NCBI RefSeq assembly: GCF_003668555.1
Contig: NZ_RCWN01000002.1
Coordinates: 90,123 to 154,122 of the forward strand
Direction: 5' to 3'
Length of the DNA stretch: 64,000 nucleotides
Source of the DNA: Notoacmeibacter ruber
Lineage (GTDB): Bacteria > Pseudomonadota > Alphaproteobacteria > Rhizobiales > Rhizobiaceae
Numbering within the stretch: position 1 is the stretch's first letter; every line of letters starts with the position of its first letter. Of this stretch, positions 56,505-64,000 are shown piece by piece. Both the position numbers and the translations under genes were made by a program. Below the pieces are notes generated by a model that ran no database searches, had not been told where the DNA came from, and saw only the letters and a program-made list of their open reading frames with translations.

Positions 56505-57203
56505 TTGGCAAATGTCACGACCGCGGAATATGTCGAATCGCTGCAGACAATTGTCGAAAGCGTTCTACTGAAACTCGATTTCGACTATTATGCGGTGTGT
56601 TCGATCAATGCCAACGATTTCGGGCTGTGTAATTCCCTGCCAATTGCTCATACGACCAACTATCCGAATGAATGGCTAAAACACTATATATCAAATCAAT
56701 TGCATAATTTCGATCCCGTGATGTATTTCGGGCGAATGGTCTCCTATCCAGTGTCCTGGGAAAAGCTCGAACTGGCCTCCGGTTTCAGCAAGGACCATCG
56801 CTCGGTTCTCAATTGCGCCAGAGATTTCGGATTGCGTTCCGGCATCTGCATGAGCATCCACAATCTCGATGGCAGTTTGATGATCGTTTCACTGGCGTCA
56901 TCCGGCGAGCGAACGCTGAACAATATGGTCATCAAGGAGGCGGCCAATTCTGTACAGGCGCTTTCCACGATCGGCCCCTCCCCCGCTGCCATCGAGAGCG
57001 GATGTTTCGACCTCACGCAGCGAGAGGTCGAGTGCCTCAGCTGGTGCGCTCTCGGCAAGACGTCCAACGACATCTCGGCGATCCTCGAAATCAGCAGCAA
57101 TACCGTCGATTTTCATCTGAAAAGCGCCATGCGAAAGCTTTCCGCCAGTAGCCGGACCTTCGCCATCGTCAAGGCCATGCGCAACGGGATCATTCCGCTG
57201 TAA
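56505..57203 (+). CDS. luxR: LuxR-family quorum-sensing regulator
   Basis: A 232-residue regulator. The autoinducer-binding domain (residues about 15-160) has DYYAVCSI, YPNEWLKHYISNQLHNFDPV (Trp, Tyr and Asp of the acyl-homoserine-lactone pocket) and YPVSWEK (second Trp). The LuxR HTH (about 168-228) is LTQREVECLSWCALGKTSND, ISAILEISSNTVDFHLKSAM. It starts with TTG at 56505 behind GGGGGGATACC; no in-frame ATG lies close. It converges with luxI (32 bp between ends), the usual pairing. Confidence 0.92.
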   Translation: MANVTTAEYVESLQTIVESVLLKLDFDYYAVCSINANDFGLCNSLPIAHTTNYPNEWLKHYISNQLHNFDPVMYFGRMVSYPVSWEKLELASGFSKDHRSVLNCARDFGLRSGICMSIHNLDGSLMIVSLASSGERTLNNMVIKEAANSVQALSTIGPSPAAIESGCFDLTQREVECLSWCALGKTSNDISAILEISSNTVDFHLKSAMRKLSASSRTFAIVKAMRNGIIPL

Positions 57204-57235
57204 GGCCCCCTCCTCAGACGAAGGTCTTGCGGCCA

Positions 57236-57850
57236 TTACGCCGTTCGCGCCGGGGTATCGTATTGCCGCATCTCCGGCAGCAGCAATTCGGGATCGGCAG
57301 CTCTGTCAGCTTTGATGGACACCTTGCCGAGACAAGTCAGAACACCGTCGATCTTACGACTGTCGCCGATATATTCGACGCAATAGCCGTTCGGGCGGAT
57401 CAGGCGCTCGAAGATGAATTTCGGCATCACCATCATATAACTCTCAATGCCGTGATCCTGGCCGAAAGTGTAGATTTCACGGAACAGCACCCGGATGGCT
57501 TCCTGCCGCTGGGCATGGGTCAGGTGAGCGGAACACCCGAACCGACTGGCCTCCCACACCTTCATGCTGTGCGGGCAACCATCGTAAGGCCAGTCCGGCC
57601 ACAGCTCCTCGATCATGTACCGGACGGTGGTCGGCAGAAGCCGTGACACCGCACAGACCCGGTCGTCGTCATCGATGGTCAGCACGTAATGCGCGGCGGG
57701 CGTGTCGAAACAGTCGAATTCCAGTTCATCCGTGCATGGCAGTTCCCAGCCGAGACGGTCGACGAATATCTCGCGGCGCAGGCGCAGATGATCCAACCAG
57801 TATCCGTGATTGCGCCCCAGATTGTAGGCGTCGATGATGAGCGTTCGCAT
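57236..57850 (-). CDS. luxI: acyl-homoserine-lactone synthase
   Basis: A 204-residue LuxI-type synthase that makes an N-acyl-homoserine lactone from S-adenosylmethionine and an acyl carrier. Conserved residues are present: LRREIFVDRLGW (Arg, Phe, Trp), ELEFDCFDTPAAHYVL (Glu, Asp, Asp), VCAVSRLLPTT (Arg) and KVWEASRFGCS (Glu and Arg). The start at 57850 has AAAGGA seven bases upstream. It is divergent from the doxX operon; the acyl chain cannot be predicted. Confidence 0.93.
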   Translation of the reverse strand: MRTLIIDAYNLGRNHGYWLDHLRLRREIFVDRLGWELPCTDELEFDCFDTPAAHYVLTIDDDDRVCAVSRLLPTTVRYMIEELWPDWPYDGCPHSMKVWEASRFGCSAHLTHAQRQEAIRVLFREIYTFGQDHGIESYMMVMPKFIFERLIRPNGYCVEYIGDSRKIDGVLTCLGKVSIKADRAADPELLLPEMRQYDTPARTA

Positions 57851-57964
57851 TTCGGGGTCCTTTTCTGCATGGGCATTTGCAGATCGAATTGAGCGGTCGC
57901 GGCGCATTCCCTTGGGTAATTCGCGCGCGTAACCGACCCTCAACATTGGTCCCCACCATCAGCA

Positions 57965-58083
57965 ACTGCCGAAATTGGTTATTGACCGCCTCTGGCGAGG
58001 CACTCCCCGGGGAAAATCGCCTAGAGGAAAGAATTTCCTATTTCTAATCATCAACTTGCAGGAAACCTACCGATTTCGGCAGT
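57965..58083. promoter_or_regulatory. divergent luxI/doxX promoter with two oppositely oriented 14-bp motifs
   Basis: ACTGCCGAAATTGG at 57965-57978 and, on the other strand, ACTGCCGAAATCGG at 58070-58083 (13 of 14 equal). The second is part of a 21-bp partial palindrome (58066-58086, arms CCTAC / GTAGG). These are candidate LuxR-type sites, one toward luxI and one toward the biosynthetic genes. Otherwise the 337-bp region shows no gene. Confidence 0.5.
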
Positions 58084-58187
58084 AGGAGCGAGCCGAGTTT
58101 TCCATAGTCTCCGCGCCGAGTTTGACGCCGCGAATTCGCATCGGTTTCACGCTGCGAATTGCGGGAGTTCAGGGGTGGGATGACGCG

Positions 58188-58619
58188 ATGGCAACCGGTC
58201 GTCGATATGATTGGGTGGACTATGCCCGGCTCGCATCCGGCGCGCTGTGTCTCGCTGCCGGTATCGCCAAGGCCTTTCCGCGAATCGAGGACGTCGCCGA
58301 GACGCTCCGCCAGATGGCGGAGGCGAATGAAGGCACCGCTCTCGCGCCGCTCAGCAATCTCATCGCCGACAATCTGACGGCGGCGGTCTGGCTCGTCGCA
58401 ATCGCTCTGGCCGCCTCCGGTCTCGCCTTCCTTTTCAACCGGTTCGTGGTGCCGGCGGCGCTTGGCCAACTGGTCATGTTTTCCCTCTTCATGACGCTAC
58501 TGTTCCGGTTCCAGCCGGCCATCATCGCCATCGACCTGCCCTTCATCGCGGTCGATCTGCTCGTGCTGCAACGCGCCTTCCAACGCCGCCACGGTTTGGG
58601 GAGTGCACAAAAATGCTAG
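58188..58619 (+). CDS. DoxX-like membrane protein
   Basis: A 143-residue protein with four predicted helices (about 11-28, 62-80, 84-104 and 110-128) and a DoxX-like start (ARLASGALCLAAGIAKAFPR). The ATG at 58188 follows a GGGGTGGG stretch. It overlaps the FAD-oxidoreductase gene by seven bases. Role unknown; it could be a membrane partner or quinone-linked helper of the oxidoreductase. Confidence 0.75.
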   Translation: MATGRRYDWVDYARLASGALCLAAGIAKAFPRIEDVAETLRQMAEANEGTALAPLSNLIADNLTAAVWLVAIALAASGLAFLFNRFVVPAALGQLVMFSLFMTLLFRFQPAIIAIDLPFIAVDLLVLQRAFQRRHGLGSAQKC

Positions 58620-60235
58620 CCGATCCAGATTCGATCCGCATCGAAGACCCATGCCAAAATGCTGGGGACCGGCCTCGCATCATCGTGGTCGGCGCGGGTC
58701 TTGCCGGCCTCAGCGCAGCGCTCGACCTGCACGATCGCGGCGCAAGGATCGATATTCTCGAAGCATCGGACGAACCCGGCGGGAACGCCTGGTACGAGAC
58801 GTGGCGCGATATCAGGCAGCCGACAGCCGGATCCTGTTTCCGCTCGCCGCTGCCCGGCGGCCATGTCGAGCGTTTGCTCGAACGGTTCAATCTGGCAACG
58901 GATTGGCGCTCGACCGGCTCCGCCATGCAGGTCTTGTTCCGGACCGGCGCCCTTCTGGGCAATCTGCACGAAGTGAGCGCGGCTTTTCTGCGTCATCCGT
59001 CATGGCTGCTGAAGCCGAAGGTCTGGGGCCTGACCGGCGGATTGCTGACGGCAGCGCTGACCGGCCGCCCTCTCGTCCCCGCTGCAAAGGCGCTGGGCGA
59101 GCCGATTTTCACCGAGCTCTATCGCTTTCTCGACCGTCTCGGTCCCAATAAGGATCGCTTCCCGGCTGTGCCATGGACGCCCGATTGCGGCATTGCCCGC
59201 GCCGAGATGGAAGCGCTCGATCGGATGACCATCGGCCAGTTCCTCTTCGAGCCATCCACCACCCGGCAACTGCCGGAAGACCTCCGCCCGCCGCGCCGTC
59301 TCGGTCGTCTCGTCAGGCTTGCAGTGACCACGACACTGGAGGTCGAGGGACTGCTGCTCGACAACTGTTCAGCCTATGTGGGTCTGCATTTTCTGGTCGG
59401 CTATCTTCACGGCGATCTGGTCGCACTGCCCGGCGGCAACGGCGCGGTGTCAAAAGCGCTCGTCGACCATCTTGAGAGCCAGCCGGACGTCACCCTCTCG
59501 ACCGAAGCGCGTGTCAGAGGCATCCGCGCGACGGACCGTGGCTACCGTGTGGCGTTCCAGAGCGGCAACCGGACCCGAACCCTGAATTGTGACGGCGTCA
59601 TCGTGGCGACACCCAAGGAAGCGGCGCTGGCCTTCCTTCCCGACCTGCCCACCGCCCAGCGCGAAGCGATGGCCGAAATAGAATATTCTGACTACGCCAT
59701 TGCAAATGCGCGGCTTAAGCGGCCCGTCTGGACCGAAAATTTCGGCGGCTACTTCATCGGCGACAAACCCGGCAAGCGGGCCAAAACGGGCTTTTGCCGC
59801 GCTGGCGGCGTGGTCAATGCGGGCTGGCGCGCCCTGCCCGGCACCAAAGAAGCCGGCGGGCTATCCTGCCTGAAGCCCGTTCCCCAGCGCGCCGATCAAG
59901 GCAAGCTGACAAATACGGACGAAACGACCCTGCGCGCCGAGGCGGAAGCGGAAATACGCCGAACGCTGATGGCCATCGGCGCCGATCCGTCTGTGCTGGA
60001 TGACGTACGGCTTCATCTGTGGCCGCACGGTCTCGTTTCGCCGCGACCAGGCCAGATTGCGGATGATCTCTTCGTCCGCGCAAGCGCGCCGTTTGGAGCA
60101 ATCGCCTTCGCCAATCAGGACAGTATCGGCGTCGGTTGCCTGGAAGCGGCGATCGAAAGCGGCCATCGCGCCGCCGCCCAACTCACGCAGGCCATTCCGG
60201 TGGCCACGTCGAACCTCACCCGCCAAGCAGGCTGA
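58613..60235 (+). CDS. FAD-dependent oxidoreductase (phytoene desaturase/amine oxidase superfamily)
   Basis: A 540-residue flavoprotein. The dinucleotide-binding motif is PRIIVVGAGLAGLSAALDLH (about residue 21) with the partner acidic residue in IDILEASDEPGGNAW. A second stretch reads LVALPGGNGAVSKALVDHLE, and the C-terminal FAD contact region is SAPFGAIAFANQDSIGVGCL. The overall plan is that of phytoene desaturase/hydroxysqualene-type oxidases. GGGGAG lies upstream. It is followed after 19 bp by the dikinase-like gene. Substrate unknown. Confidence 0.88.
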   Translation: MLADPDSIRIEDPCQNAGDRPRIIVVGAGLAGLSAALDLHDRGARIDILEASDEPGGNAWYETWRDIRQPTAGSCFRSPLPGGHVERLLERFNLATDWRSTGSAMQVLFRTGALLGNLHEVSAAFLRHPSWLLKPKVWGLTGGLLTAALTGRPLVPAAKALGEPIFTELYRFLDRLGPNKDRFPAVPWTPDCGIARAEMEALDRMTIGQFLFEPSTTRQLPEDLRPPRRLGRLVRLAVTTTLEVEGLLLDNCSAYVGLHFLVGYLHGDLVALPGGNGAVSKALVDHLESQPDVTLSTEARVRGIRATDRGYRVAFQSGNRTRTLNCDGVIVATPKEAALAFLPDLPTAQREAMAEIEYSDYAIANARLKRPVWTENFGGYFIGDKPGKRAKTGFCRAGGVVNAGWRALPGTKEAGGLSCLKPVPQRADQGKLTNTDETTLRAEAEAEIRRTLMAIGADPSVLDDVRLHLWPHGLVSPRPGQIADDLFVRASAPFGAIAFANQDSIGVGCLEAAIESGHRAAAQLTQAIPVATSNLTRQAG

Positions 60236-60254
60236 AGCCTCAAGGAGAAGACGA

Positions 60255-62963
60255 ATGTTCGTTACGAAACTCGATGGCAATGCCCAGGGCGGACGCGAAA
60301 TTCTGGGCGGCAAGGCGATGTCGCTCAACCAGATGGTGGCCGAGGGTATGCCCGTCCCGGAAGCGTTCTGCATCACGACCGAGGCCTTCGCGCACTTTCT
60401 TGAGAAGAACGGGCTGGACAAACCCGGCCTCGATAATCTTGCCAATGCGATTGCCGGAGGCGTCATGCCGGCGGATCTGGAACAGCAATTGCGCGCGATC
60501 TGCGACGAACTGGGCGATGCGCCGGTCGCGGTCCGTTCTTCCGCCGCAGCAGAGGATTCCGACCAGAGTTCCTATGCTGGCCAGTTTCTGACCCGTCTGA
60601 ACCTGCGCGGGACCGAGGCGATCATCGCCGCCGTCAGGGAATGCTGGGCCTCGCTCTTTGCCAATCACGCGCTCAGCTACGCAACGCAGCGAGAGGAAAG
60701 CTGCGCGAAGCCGGCCATCGCGGTGGCGGTGCAGCGCATGGTCGATGCCGACGTGGCGGGCGTTCTTTTCACCATCGATCCGATGGGCGAAAACGATGAG
60801 TGCATGCGCATCGAAGCGGCATGGGGCGTCGGCGAAGGGCTGGTGTCCAGCCAGGTCAGCACCGACAGCTTCATCGTCCGCCGCGACGATCTGAGCCTTG
60901 CGTCCAAGGTGATCCGGGGCAAGGCGATGTCCACACTGTGCCAGCCCGATGGCGGTATCGCACTGGTGGAAACCGATGAAGACAAGATCGATGCGCCCAC
61001 ACTGACCGCCGCGCAGGTCCACGAACTGGCTGAAATGGCAAAGCGCTTGTCGGCCAGCGAGTCCTATCAGGGTCAGGAACTGGATATCGAGTGGGCGATG
61101 CATCGCGGCGAGATGTGGATTCTGCAAGCCCGCCCAATCACCACCGCCAGAGCGGAGACGGTTAAGGTCTATGCCGATACCGAAGAGACCGATCCGGTGC
61201 GGCGCGACAACGCGCTCTTCTCGCGGATGGATACCGGCGAGATCGTCACCGGTCTGATGTCGCCGCTGGGCCTCTCCTTCTGCCGGTTCTACCAGAACGA
61301 AATTCACGGTCCCGCGGTCAAGACGATGGGCCTGCGCAAGATGATGGCGCCGCACACTTTCATGGGCTATGTGCGCGGCCACGTCTATCTCAACATCTCG
61401 GCCTCGGCGCATATGCTCACGCAGTGTCCGCCGACGCGCGATCCGCTCAAATTCACAACGCGTTATGCGACCGACGAGGTCGACCTCGACACCTATCGCA
61501 ATCCTTACGGCACGCCGCCCAAGGGGATCGATTACGGGTTGAGCGCGACCTACTGGACCGGTCGTCAGGTCTATAATCTGACGACGGCCGAGCGGACAGC
61601 CAAAAAGATGGAACAACAGCGCCGTCGCCGCACCGAGCACGCACTCGGGCTGGACCTTTCGTCCATGACCCGCGAGGAGCTGAACAGCGAACTGGAGCGG
61701 ATCGACACCGCCTTCCGCGATGCCTGCGCCGCTTATATGCCATTCTTCCTGCAGAGCTTCGCGCTTTACGACGCGCTGGCCGAAAAATGCGAGACGCTTT
61801 TCGAAGGCAAGGGCAACGGCCTGCAGAACCGCATCAAGGCATCGCTCAACAATCTGCGGACAATCGAGGTCACGCGCGGAATATTGAACCTGGCTGAGAC
61901 GGTTCGCCAGAAGCCTGCGCTGGCGAGAATAATAAAAGCGACCCCGACCCACGAAATCGTCGAGACACTGCAACAGAGCGAGGACGGTCGCGCTTTCCTC
62001 GATACCGACTTCGCCGCTTTCCTGAAGGAATTCGGCGCGCGCGGTCGTCAGGAATTCGAACTGACGATTCCCCGCTGGGCCGATGACCCGCGCTACATCT
62101 TCGACGTGATCCGGCTCTATCTGGTGAACGAGGTCGAGTTGGAAAAGAAGATGGCCGACAGCGAGGCGGAACGCGGCAGCGAAACCGAACGCCTGCTCGC
62201 AAGCCTTCCATCCAAGGAACGGTTCGGGCTGAAATTCATCATTCGGTCCTACGCCAAAATGGCCGATCTGCGAGAACGCGTCCGCCCCGCCTTTATCGCC
62301 GAGACATGGTTCTACCGCCGCATCATCATGGAAATGCTGGAACGGCTGGAACGCCGCGGCGTGCTGAAAGTCTCCGACTTCCCCTACATCGATTTCAACC
62401 GTTTCCGCGACTACATGGCGGGCCGCATGGATGAGCAGGAAGCGTTCAGTCGCGAACTGATCTTCAAAAACCGCCGCGAGAACCTCATCAATCTGCGTAG
62501 CGAAGAGCCGCCGATGAGCCTTATCGGAGGTTATGTGCCGAAACCCGCCTCGGCCGTGCCCGCCATGGACAATGACGGTCAGGTTCAGGGCCTCGGCGCA
62601 AGCCCCGGCATCGTGGTCGGTCCCGCACGCGTCATCACCGACCTGCCCAAGCAGGCGATGAAGTTTCGGAAGGGCGAAATCCTTGTCGCCCGCTTTACCG
62701 ATGCCTCCTGGACGCCGCTCTTCACACTGGCTGCGGGCGTGGTGACCGACATCGGCTCCGCCCTGTCCCACAGCTCGATTGTGGCGCGCGAATTCGGCAT
62801 CCCGGCGGTGGTGAACACACGCATCGCGACGGCCCGCATCCGCACCGGCGACATCGTCACAATCGATGGCGACAGCGGAACCGTCAGCTTCGAATCCTGC
62901 CAGGGAACCGAAGCGCCCGCCGCCATGCCTGAAGAGGCCGAACCCGCCGCCGCCACGGCCTGA
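60255..62963 (+). CDS. PEP-synthase-like ATP-grasp/His-domain phosphotransferase
   Basis: A 902-residue protein. The N-terminal ATP-grasp domain of the PPDK/PEPS type (residues about 1-320) includes GGKAMSLNQMVAEGMPVPEA, VAVRSSAAAEDSDQSSYAGQ and WGVGEGLVSSQVSTDS. The C-terminal swivelling domain (about 775-885) includes GLGASPGIVVGPARVITDLP, ILVARFTDASWTP and the phospho-His motif GSALSHSSIVAREFGIPAVV. Between them lies a long unassigned region (about 330-775). No PEP/pyruvate-binding TIM barrel follows, so it resembles rifampin phosphotransferase (ATP-grasp, substrate domain, His domain, about 865 residues) rather than PEP synthase. Predicted to transfer the ATP beta-phosphate to a small molecule. 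Confidence 0.85.
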   Translation: MFVTKLDGNAQGGREILGGKAMSLNQMVAEGMPVPEAFCITTEAFAHFLEKNGLDKPGLDNLANAIAGGVMPADLEQQLRAICDELGDAPVAVRSSAAAEDSDQSSYAGQFLTRLNLRGTEAIIAAVRECWASLFANHALSYATQREESCAKPAIAVAVQRMVDADVAGVLFTIDPMGENDECMRIEAAWGVGEGLVSSQVSTDSFIVRRDDLSLASKVIRGKAMSTLCQPDGGIALVETDEDKIDAPTLTAAQVHELAEMAKRLSASESYQGQELDIEWAMHRGEMWILQARPITTARAETVKVYADTEETDPVRRDNALFSRMDTGEIVTGLMSPLGLSFCRFYQNEIHGPAVKTMGLRKMMAPHTFMGYVRGHVYLNISASAHMLTQCPPTRDPLKFTTRYATDEVDLDTYRNPYGTPPKGIDYGLSATYWTGRQVYNLTTAERTAKKMEQQRRRRTEHALGLDLSSMTREELNSELERIDTAFRDACAAYMPFFLQSFALYDALAEKCETLFEGKGNGLQNRIKASLNNLRTIEVTRGILNLAETVRQKPALARIIKATPTHEIVETLQQSEDGRAFLDTDFAAFLKEFGARGRQEFELTIPRWADDPRYIFDVIRLYLVNEVELEKKMADSEAERGSETERLLASLPSKERFGLKFIIRSYAKMADLRERVRPAFIAETWFYRRIIMEMLERLERRGVLKVSDFPYIDFNRFRDYMAGRMDEQEAFSRELIFKNRRENLINLRSEEPPMSLIGGYVPKPASAVPAMDNDGQVQGLGASPGIVVGPARVITDLPKQAMKFRKGEILVARFTDASWTPLFTLAAGVVTDIGSALSHSSIVAREFGIPAVVNTRIATARIRTGDIVTIDGDSGTVSFESCQGTEAPAAMPEEAEPAAATA

Positions 62964-62994
62964 AACGCTTTCCTGCCTGTCTGGAGCCCGGAAT

Positions 62995-64000
62995 ATGGAT
63001 GTCTGCGTCAGCATTATCGTCGTTACGCGCAACGCCGACTTTTTTCAGGCGGGCGCGTCGGTGATTTGCGATTTGCAGAATGCCCTGTTCGACGAAGTCA
63101 CCATCGATAGCGACTGGGACGTGCCGCTGCCTGCCATGCCGCCGCCCGGTCCGCACTATCTGAAGGCCCGCGACCGGGCGATGCGCTTTATCAAGGGCGG
63201 AGAGGACCGGATTTCGCTGCACGTCGTGCAGGCTCCGAGCCTTCCTAACGCGGTCGACAGGCTAGCTTCGGTGCAACGGAACCGTGACGTCCACCATGTC
63301 GGCATGGCCTATGTCGACTATTCCGGCCCCTATCATGCGGAACGGTCGATTGCCGAGATCGACCGGGACTTGCGTGATTTTTACGCCGCGCTGCGCGAAC
63401 GCCACGTGACCGCATTCGAAACCCCGTCATCGACTGCCGTTTTCCAGCCGCAGCAACCCCTGCCCTATCAGGTCCACCCGATGAATTTCATCCGGTGCGT
63501 GCTGCCAAGCGATCCCGACATACTGCGCGCGCAGCTTCTCTGTCTGTGGATGGATTTCTACGAGCTGAGCCTGGTCAACCGCCGCATCCGCGCCGGCGAC
63601 AGGGCAAAGCCGACAAGCGCGCTGGCCGATCTGATCGGCAACTTCCTCGATGAACGGACGGACCGGCGCTGGACGCTGCAATATTACACCGGCTCGCTTG
63701 TCTCCAGCCTGATCTCGGCTTTCGAGACACTCGCGGAAGAGCGCGGCGTTCCTGTTCTGCGAGGGCCGAGTGAGCATTCTCTGGCCTGCGGCGCGATGGC
63801 CAACTGGCAGCTCTACGAGATGCCCTCCGTCACCATCATCACATCGGGCATGATCGATGAGTTTCGCGGCACATTGGCCAATTTGTGCGAAGCGCGCGCC
63901 CGCGGCTTCGTGATCTGCGCAGAGCAGAAGCCGGCGCAGTGGTACGCCTTTCAGTCGACCATCACGCCGGAGAACGACAGCCGAGAAATGTTGCGCGCCC
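62995..64000 (+). CDS. ThDP-dependent-enzyme-like protein, cut by window edge
   Basis: 335 residues are visible and no stop is reached. Residues about 1-240 are unrecognised (MDVCVSIIVVTRNADFFQAG, RDVHHVGMAYVDYSGPYHAE). From about residue 240 it reads LAEERGVPVLRGPSEHSLAC, GAMANWQLYEMPSVTIITSG and then MIDEFRGTLANLCEARARGF, which follows the pattern of a ThDP-enzyme Pyr domain (the Glu in PSEHS would be the ThDP activating residue). It follows the dikinase gene by 31 bp in the same direction, so it is part of the operon. Assignment is moderate. Confidence 0.6.
   Translation, partial: MDVCVSIIVVTRNADFFQAGASVICDLQNALFDEVTIDSDWDVPLPAMPPPGPHYLKARDRAMRFIKGGEDRISLHVVQAPSLPNAVDRLASVQRNRDVHHVGMAYVDYSGPYHAERSIAEIDRDLRDFYAALRERHVTAFETPSSTAVFQPQQPLPYQVHPMNFIRCVLPSDPDILRAQLLCLWMDFYELSLVNRRIRAGDRAKPTSALADLIGNFLDERTDRRWTLQYYTGSLVSSLISAFETLAEERGVPVLRGPSEHSLACGAMANWQLYEMPSVTIITSGMIDEFRGTLANLCEARARGFVICAEQKPAQWYAFQSTITPENDSREMLRA

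Follow-up and report, generated by a model that had tools for sequence, protein, structure and literature searches.

In all likelihood, Notoacmeibacter ruber carries a complete plasmid-borne gene cluster for the biosynthesis of prodiginines, with its own acyl-homoserine lactone (AHL) quorum-sensing module located in the front end of the cluster. This reading comes from the comparison of sequences, and it concerns the right-hand end of a stretch of 64,000 nucleotides (hereafter, the window) that corresponds to C2:90123-154122, C2 being the contig NZ_RCWN01000002.1 (154,122 bp in total). Prodiginines are pigments with antibacterial, antialgal and cytotoxic activity, and the timing of their production is known mostly from Serratia. 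Judging by the family matches, whose scores far exceed chance level, the identity of the pathway as prodiginine (prodigiosin-type) biosynthesis is close to certain. What is new concerns regulation, in that a quorum-sensing module is embedded in the cluster and appears to be conserved in two genera that belong to different orders of Alphaproteobacteria. The following features can be distinguished in the window:

56505..57203, + strand: luxR, predicted AHL-responsive regulator (232 aa, TTG start; convergent with luxI; Pfam Autoind_bind 93.1 bits, GerE 64.1 bits)
57236..57850, - strand: luxI, predicted AHL synthase (204 aa; Pfam Autoind_synth 71.8 bits, cut-off 24)
57963..57981, - strand: site A, lux-box-like, points to luxI (centre ~122 bp before the luxI start)
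58067..58085, + strand: site B, lux-box-like, points to pigB1 (centre ~112 bp before the pigB1 start)
58188..58619, + strand: pigB1, equivalent of the PigB N-terminus (143 aa, ATG at 58188; DUF6041 101.1 bits; PigB model positions 9-125)
58613..60235, + strand: pigB2, flavin adenine dinucleotide (FAD) amine-oxidase-type oxidase of dihydro-2-methyl-3-n-amyl-pyrrole (H2MAP), equivalent of the PigB C-terminus (540 aa; PigB model 519.9 bits, positions 151-658)
60255..62963, + strand: pigC, prodigiosin ligase that condenses 2-methyl-3-n-amyl-pyrrole (MAP) with 4-methoxy-2,2'-bipyrrole-5-carbaldehyde (MBC) (902 aa; NF052631 1445 bits, cut-off 1300)
62995..64000, + strand: start of pigD, thiamine diphosphate (ThDP) enzyme, cut by the contig end (NF053552 520.3 bits, model positions 1-334; the rest at C2:3-1784)

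A first-pass annotation, made from the letters without databases, had described convergent luxR and luxI genes, with luxI divergent from a four-gene operon with spacings of -7, 19 and 31 bp; gene content, order, orientation and spacings were all as claimed. Two of its labels can be refined: (i) the first gene of the operon does exist, but Pfam assigns it to DUF6041 instead of DoxX; and (ii) the 902-residue protein is likewise present, the domains found in it by Pfam are PPDK_N and PEP-utilizers, and its identity is PigC. The pigB2 protein has the Pfam domain Amino_oxidase, and the last gene, proposed to be ThDP-like, is indeed so, being pigD by its family match to NF053552. As to luxI, its open frame extends to 57946, but the start most likely lies at 57850 because the predicted starts of all nine aligned relatives fall there. 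The annotation had also proposed a dedicated small molecule, possibly a signal or antibiotic-like product, under the LuxR/LuxI pair, and had known of no described pathway with this set of genes. An antibiotic-like compound encoded beside such a pair is well supported by the sequence, but a described pathway does exist: the set is the pigB-pigC-pigD of prodigiosin biosynthesis, and the other pig genes are at the opposite end of the circular contig. A quorum-sensing-linked pathway of undescribed type, as might be suspected from a domain set that looks unusual when viewed without databases, was thus ruled out by the PigB, PigC and PigD matches of the operon genes; with other pig counterparts on the same contig, it retains a negligible probability, and the first reading of an unknown pathway is corrected to a known product class.

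The extension of the sequence past position 64000, which had been recommended, shows that contig C2 ends at that point and that the pigD frame continues at its start. The last 357 bp of C2 (window 63644-64000) are identical to C2:1-357. Due to this exact, untrimmed terminal overlap, C2 is interpreted as circular, with a replicon length of 153,765 bp; from its size and separateness, we infer that it is a plasmid. Because of the overlap and of the frame that continues at C2:3-1784, the cut in pigD corresponds to the contig end and not to biology. The PigD model matches again at C2:3-1760 (C-terminal part, 999.5 bits versus the NF053552 cut-off of 950), and the joined frame encodes 810 aa without a stop. 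A truncated or partial cluster is hence ruled out by the overlap. From the start of C2 onward, the rest of the pig genes are arranged as follows, the letters F, G, H, I, K, L, M and N having been given, with no equivalog models, by domain, order and comparison with Thioclava (phmmer counterparts):

C2:1786-4323: pigE (1344.9 bits; equivalog cut-off 850)
C2:4332-5351: pigF (by domain, order and Thioclava comparison)
C2:5370-5621: pigG (same basis)
C2:5646-7295: pigH, 549 aa (same basis)
C2:7288-8898: pigI (same basis)
C2:8895-11381: pigJ (292.5 bits; below the cut-off of 900)
C2:11372-11686: pigK, HapK/RedY-like (116 bits)
C2:11689-12390: pigL (by domain, order and Thioclava comparison)
C2:12387-13457: pigM (same basis)
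C2:13467-14606: pigA (533 bits; equivalog cut-off 500)
C2:14655-15413: pigN (same basis as pigM)

The NCBIfam equivalog cut-offs are exceeded by PigC, PigD, PigE and PigA; for the remaining pig genes, HapK, PP-binding, nitroreductase, DUF1295, ketosynthase and aminotransferase parts were matched. Both branches of the pathway are whole. The MAP branch comprises PigD, PigE and both PigB parts, the two PigB pieces matching the N- and C-terminal regions of the PigB model, and the MBC branch includes counterparts of PigA, F, G, H, I, J, L, M and N. Neither a single-chain PigB nor a PigJ above the respective cut-off was found here, but these features are not defining; PigB is also split in Hahella, a known producer genus (PMC7484904). 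In PigC, His839 is invariant in the 13 aligned sequences and aligns with a histidine of solved relatives titled phosphoenolpyruvate synthase (e.g., 5hv1). We take such relatives to be rifampin phosphotransferases, and the equivalent of His839 to be the histidine of their swivelling domain.

With regard to the regulatory genes, LuxR carries W57, Y61, D70, P71, W85, G113, E174, L178 and G184, positions which we take to be those conserved in AHL-responsive regulators (TraR numbering), and its best solved relative is 3szt, titled quorum-sensing control repressor. LuxI keeps the catalytic-core residues R25, F29, W35, E44, D46, D49, R70, E100 and R103. With Pfam scores above the cut-off and the key residues present, both proteins belong to the LuxI/LuxR quorum-sensing families.

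PigC relatives were collected by scanning genome contigs with a 13-row alignment, which gave 88 stretches, of which 80 were kept, corresponding to 78 distinct loci (the farthest, L098, with 29% identity). The closest PigC sequences are those of Notoacmeibacter marinus (96%, P0001) and Notoacmeibacter sp. MSK16QG-6 (97%, L021); of the two genomes of the genus that were searched, one (G815) has PigC and the other (G814) does not. With the own genome counted in every sample, PigC turned up in 2 of 397 genomes of the order, in 1 of 385 at class level and in 2 of 61 relatives. Six plasmid records have a PigC match (three from Thioclava, two from Methylocystis and one from Pseudoalteromonas), four of which were examined (L019, L020, L129 and L130). 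In a tree built from 25 selected PigC rows, marine alphaproteobacteria form a clade of seven rows (100/100), whose sister group is composed of methanotroph-type rows (10 rows, 100/100).

Lack of gene order conservation in other genomes had been named as one observation that would refute the first-pass reading, and the order is in fact kept in Thioclava, Methylocystis and Pseudovibrio (in the latter, as far as the stretch reaches). The alphaproteobacterial order B1-B2-C-D-E-F-G-H-I-J-K-L-M-A-N is complete in the window plus the start of C2, in the three Thioclava plasmids and in one Methylocystis plasmid (L019, L020, L129 and L130), and it is maintained in L021-L024 as far as the stretches reach. 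Thioclava, Pseudovibrio and Methylocystis/Methylosinus all have a split pigB followed by C-D-E-F-G-H-I, with J-K-L-M-A-N where the stretch is long enough. In gammaproteobacterial and Massilia-type loci, pigA precedes pigB wherever pigA was seen. The split of pigB is not a frameshift artefact, since each of the nine alphaproteobacterial loci has its own PigB1-like frame, as do Hahella, Zooshikella and a Thiosymbion metagenome-assembled genome (MAG); the actinobacterial loci L084 and L085 also have one. A fused PigB occurs in 13 loci, which come from Serratia, Prodigiosinella, Vibrio, Pseudoalteromonas and a Cellvibrionales MAG, with the exception of L044, a Serratia rubidaea locus with broken-up frames. 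Massilia and Rugamonas loci (L028, L029, L032, L042 and L045) have PigB2 and PigC fused in one frame of 1461 aa, and a search for a PigB1-like frame in them found none. A single carrier domain is recognised in the PigH of this cluster (549 aa) and in that of Thioclava (545 aa); in the Methylocystis PigH (709 aa), Pfam recognises one carrier, but phmmer with the window PigH matches two stretches. It is likely, not proven, that PigH has one carrier domain fewer in this cluster, to judge from these alignments.

Linkage to luxI was assessed in 83 loci with a PigC relative (the window, L019, L020, L021-L098, L129 and L130), by applying a LuxI profile to their open frames. Most of these loci reach 10 kb per side; five are shorter than 15 kb, others are cut on one side, and upstream of pigB1 the Pseudovibrio contig extends for only 1.8 kb. 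LuxR counts in the loci are lower bounds, because the search relied on the N-terminal part of the protein and did not pick up the LuxRs with an autoinducer-binding domain in L065 and L066. A luxI gene was found in five loci: the window, L021, L019, L129 and L130. In all five, luxI is divergent to pigB1, and all are from alphaproteobacteria of two orders (Notoacmeibacter, Hyphomicrobiales; and Thioclava, of another order). The pig-linked LuxIs, which share 56% identity between Notoacmeibacter and Thioclava, group with the database relatives P0121-P0132 in a 15-row clade (100/99) that excludes both the chromosomal LuxI of the host and the LuxIs found in other genomes with PigC, in a tree whose deep structure is made unsafe by long branches elsewhere. 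A profile of the pig-type LuxI at E 1e-30 matched 7 of 385 genomes of the class, with a high score for the own copy only (364 bits; next, 165). Among the database relatives, LuxI P0122 and PigC P0005, both from a jgi contig of 19,444 bases, probably belong to the same contig; for P0124 (the LuxI of Sagittula S175), there is no PigC row among the 120 matches listed. Around a Leisingera LuxI (42%), a stretch of 12.6 kb contains no pig genes. Thirty-nine genomes or records were searched in full, covering 37 of the 78 scan loci together with L019 and L020. Of these, 23 have a match to the LuxI family PF00765, 22 of them over the cut-off; the matches include the linked copies of L019 and L021, and the rest lie outside the pig stretches. 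The host has a second, only distantly related LuxI on its largest contig (G000:C1:2614788-2615300), a possible source of cross-talk.

The intergenic region between luxI and pigB1 contains an inverted pair of 15 nt (57965-57979 and 58069-58083; 93% complementary, with 89 nt between them), which is the core of sites A and B. Site B is partly palindromic (12 of 16 positions equal their own reverse complement). The consensus ACCRATTTYGGYRGT has two exact matches in the 3.25 Mb genome, both between luxI and pigB1, and the reversed control pattern has none; as the consensus was drawn after viewing all three sites, these exact matches arise partly by construction. With a matrix built from the two window sites alone, the Thioclava site (L019:17789-17807) ranks first among the 85,238 positions of L019, and the site upstream of pigB1 ranks second in the Thioclava loci L129 and L130. 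The annotated pigB1 starts in Thioclava differ (17888, 17909 and, in L130, 17801); counted from 17909, the start that aligns with that of the window pigB1, the centre of the Thioclava site is ~111 bp upstream, as in the window. As expected of a close relative, L021 carries both sites. Allowing up to four mismatches, the 19-bp element was found in none of L020, L022 and L023, which have no linked luxI, and once in L024, far from pigB1; under the same pattern and four mismatches, a second mirrored element near the Thioclava luxI was not found. Since the element is short and matches with mismatches occur elsewhere, its support comes from rank and position. In summary, the candidate lux boxes upstream of luxI and pigB1 are two partly palindromic sites whose exact form is unique in the genome and which have a counterpart in Thioclava.

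Control of luxI and pig by AHL-LuxR from one shared region is the best reading of this arrangement, and direct AHL control is likely. By homology to the pig pathway, PigD would add a pyruvate-derived acetyl to a medium-chain enal-type acceptor, PigE would aminate and cyclise the product, and the split PigB would oxidise it to MAP; PigI, G, A, J, H, M, N and F would make MBC from proline, malonyl-CoA and serine; and PigC would couple MAP with MBC. The AHL made by LuxI would be bound by LuxR, which would then bind both inverted lux-box-like sites between luxI and pigB1, turning on luxI (positive feedback) and the pig operon jointly at high cell density. There is about an even chance that luxI, luxR, the element and the pig operon constitute one co-inherited, self-contained plasmid module of marine alphaproteobacteria, in which AHL-LuxR would directly activate both prodiginine production and the synthesis of the signal itself, through one bidirectional promoter region. 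If so, a compact module composed of signal gene, receptor, binding sites and pathway would allow direct quorum-sensing control to be tested at a single promoter, and the joint gain of the pathway and its regulation by marine alphaproteobacteria would have an explanation.

Several points, besides the way in which the consensus was drawn, weigh against these readings. The three Thioclava plasmids are near-copies and, therefore, amount to about one observation. PF00765 has no match in the whole Pseudovibrio Ad37 (G398), Methylosinus Sm6 (G400) and Methylocystis plasmid (W02), all of which are pig carriers. Regarding the element, ACCRATTTYGGYRGT has four one-mismatch copies elsewhere in the genome; in L129 and L130, an unrelated position outscores the Thioclava site; by plain mismatch count, this site is one of 10 matches at three mismatches in 42.6 kb of L019, which is not decisive; and the annotated start 17801 of L130 would fall inside the element. 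No sigma-70 promoters or terminators were recognised in 57800-58300. The sign of the regulation could be negative here, because SpnR is a negative regulator and quorum sensing is dispensable for pig in Serratia. As to the pathway, PigJ (292.5 versus 900 bits) and the split PigB (86.6 + 519.9 versus 850) are below the NCBIfam cut-offs.

Part of this evidence would fit a genuine prodiginine cluster in which luxR and luxI were mere neighbours that regulate other genes (e.g., plasmid transfer), with pig under other controls. The examined stretch of four of the nine alphaproteobacterial pig loci (L020, L022, L023 and L024) has no luxI, and two of those genomes (G398 and G400) have no PF00765 match at all, so that pig is viable without luxI; besides, some Serratia strains make the pigment without luxI, according to the portion of the S. 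marcescens study used here (PMC6433178). Nevertheless, luxI genes of the same subfamily are divergent to pigB1 in two orders, and the element is on the pigB1 side in both genera, its exact form being nowhere else in this genome, all of which makes a mere neighbourhood unlikely. Far less probable still is that the product is another bipyrrole compound, i.e., a tambjamine or a new analogue made by a PigC-like ligase with a variant partner. PigC homologues do occur in clusters where PigB and PigD are not found, and PigJ and PigH deviate from the gammaproteobacterial forms; but pigB, pigD and pigE are all present, PigD and PigE exceed the equivalog cut-offs and PigC reaches 1445 bits. Membership of the tambjamine (tam) group, which has the MBC branch without PigB and PigD, was rejected on the presence of both, the tam cluster being described without pigB and pigD homologues in the passages available from PMC6667630. 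Direct AHL-LuxR control of a prodiginine cluster is thus preferred.

In the literature searched, whose coverage was partial, no description was found of a luxI beside an alphaproteobacterial pig cluster. In the same genus as this host, Notoacmeibacter sp. HMA008 is antibacterial and has 12 antiSMASH clusters, which include homoserine lactone and a "prodigiosin" region with 38% similarity (PMC9605435, in the excerpts seen, where neither the order of the genes nor a link to quorum sensing or a location on a plasmid is mentioned). Excerpts of PMC7484904 name heptylprodigiosin as the major component in the alphaproteobacterium Pseudovibrio denitrificans and Hahella as a known producer genus. The pathway steps and the comparison of tam and pig are treated in PMC6667630, in the parts used here, and the prodigiosin entries encountered in PMC4882561 are of sponge-associated Serratia. 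In the accessible part of PMC6433178, 35 S. marcescens genomes include 25 with luxI, seven with pig and two with both, so that luxI is present in only two of the seven pig-bearing strains, with class I/II luxI at other named loci; SpnR is given as a negative regulator of prodigiosin, and quorum-sensing control of pig as dispensable.

The pig cluster of Serratia (pigA-N) has a counterpart here for every function A-N. It differs in that pigA is first there but near the end, after pigM, here; features of the present cluster are a pigB of two genes, a PigH with one recognised carrier domain, and physically linked luxI and luxR. Serratia is also unlike the proposed bidirectional module, as its quorum-sensing control is dispensable and acts via a negative regulator. 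The hap/pig loci of Hahella and Zooshikella (L079, L025 and L039) share the split pigB, and PigK here matches the HapK family, but pigA is first in those loci and no luxI lies within the examined stretch. Thioclava has the divergent luxI and the element as here, but its luxR lies beyond a DevC-type exporter at the opposite end of the cluster; no linked luxI is present in the examined stretches of the Pseudovibrio and Methylocystis loci.

A MacA/DevC-type exporter follows pigN in Thioclava (L019:38801-41495), as does a MacA-like gene in Methylocystis (L020:37912-38670). In the host, a tblastn search with the Thioclava MacA-like and DevC proteins, which covered C2, C4 and C3 up to 60 kb (all but its last 2.7 kb) and left the chromosome aside, detected no such exporter, but generic ATPases only; a stricter limit missed even the annotated MacA-like gene of L020, and at E 0.01 that gene was recovered, with still none on the host plasmid.

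Finally, a divergent PigC-like cluster (39% identity) exists in Paucibacter (L144, L145, G423:C7; L066), in L146 (G422:C385) and in Cupriavidus (L065). It contains G-, H-, I-, J-, A-, E-, M-, K- and L-like genes, with no match for PigB and PigD. At one end of the Paucibacter cluster there is a luxI (L145:17727-18491, - strand) and at the other an autoinducer-binding luxR (L144:10346-11137, + strand). This cluster looks tambjamine-like and quorum-sensing-bracketed, and is apparently independent of the alphaproteobacterial case.

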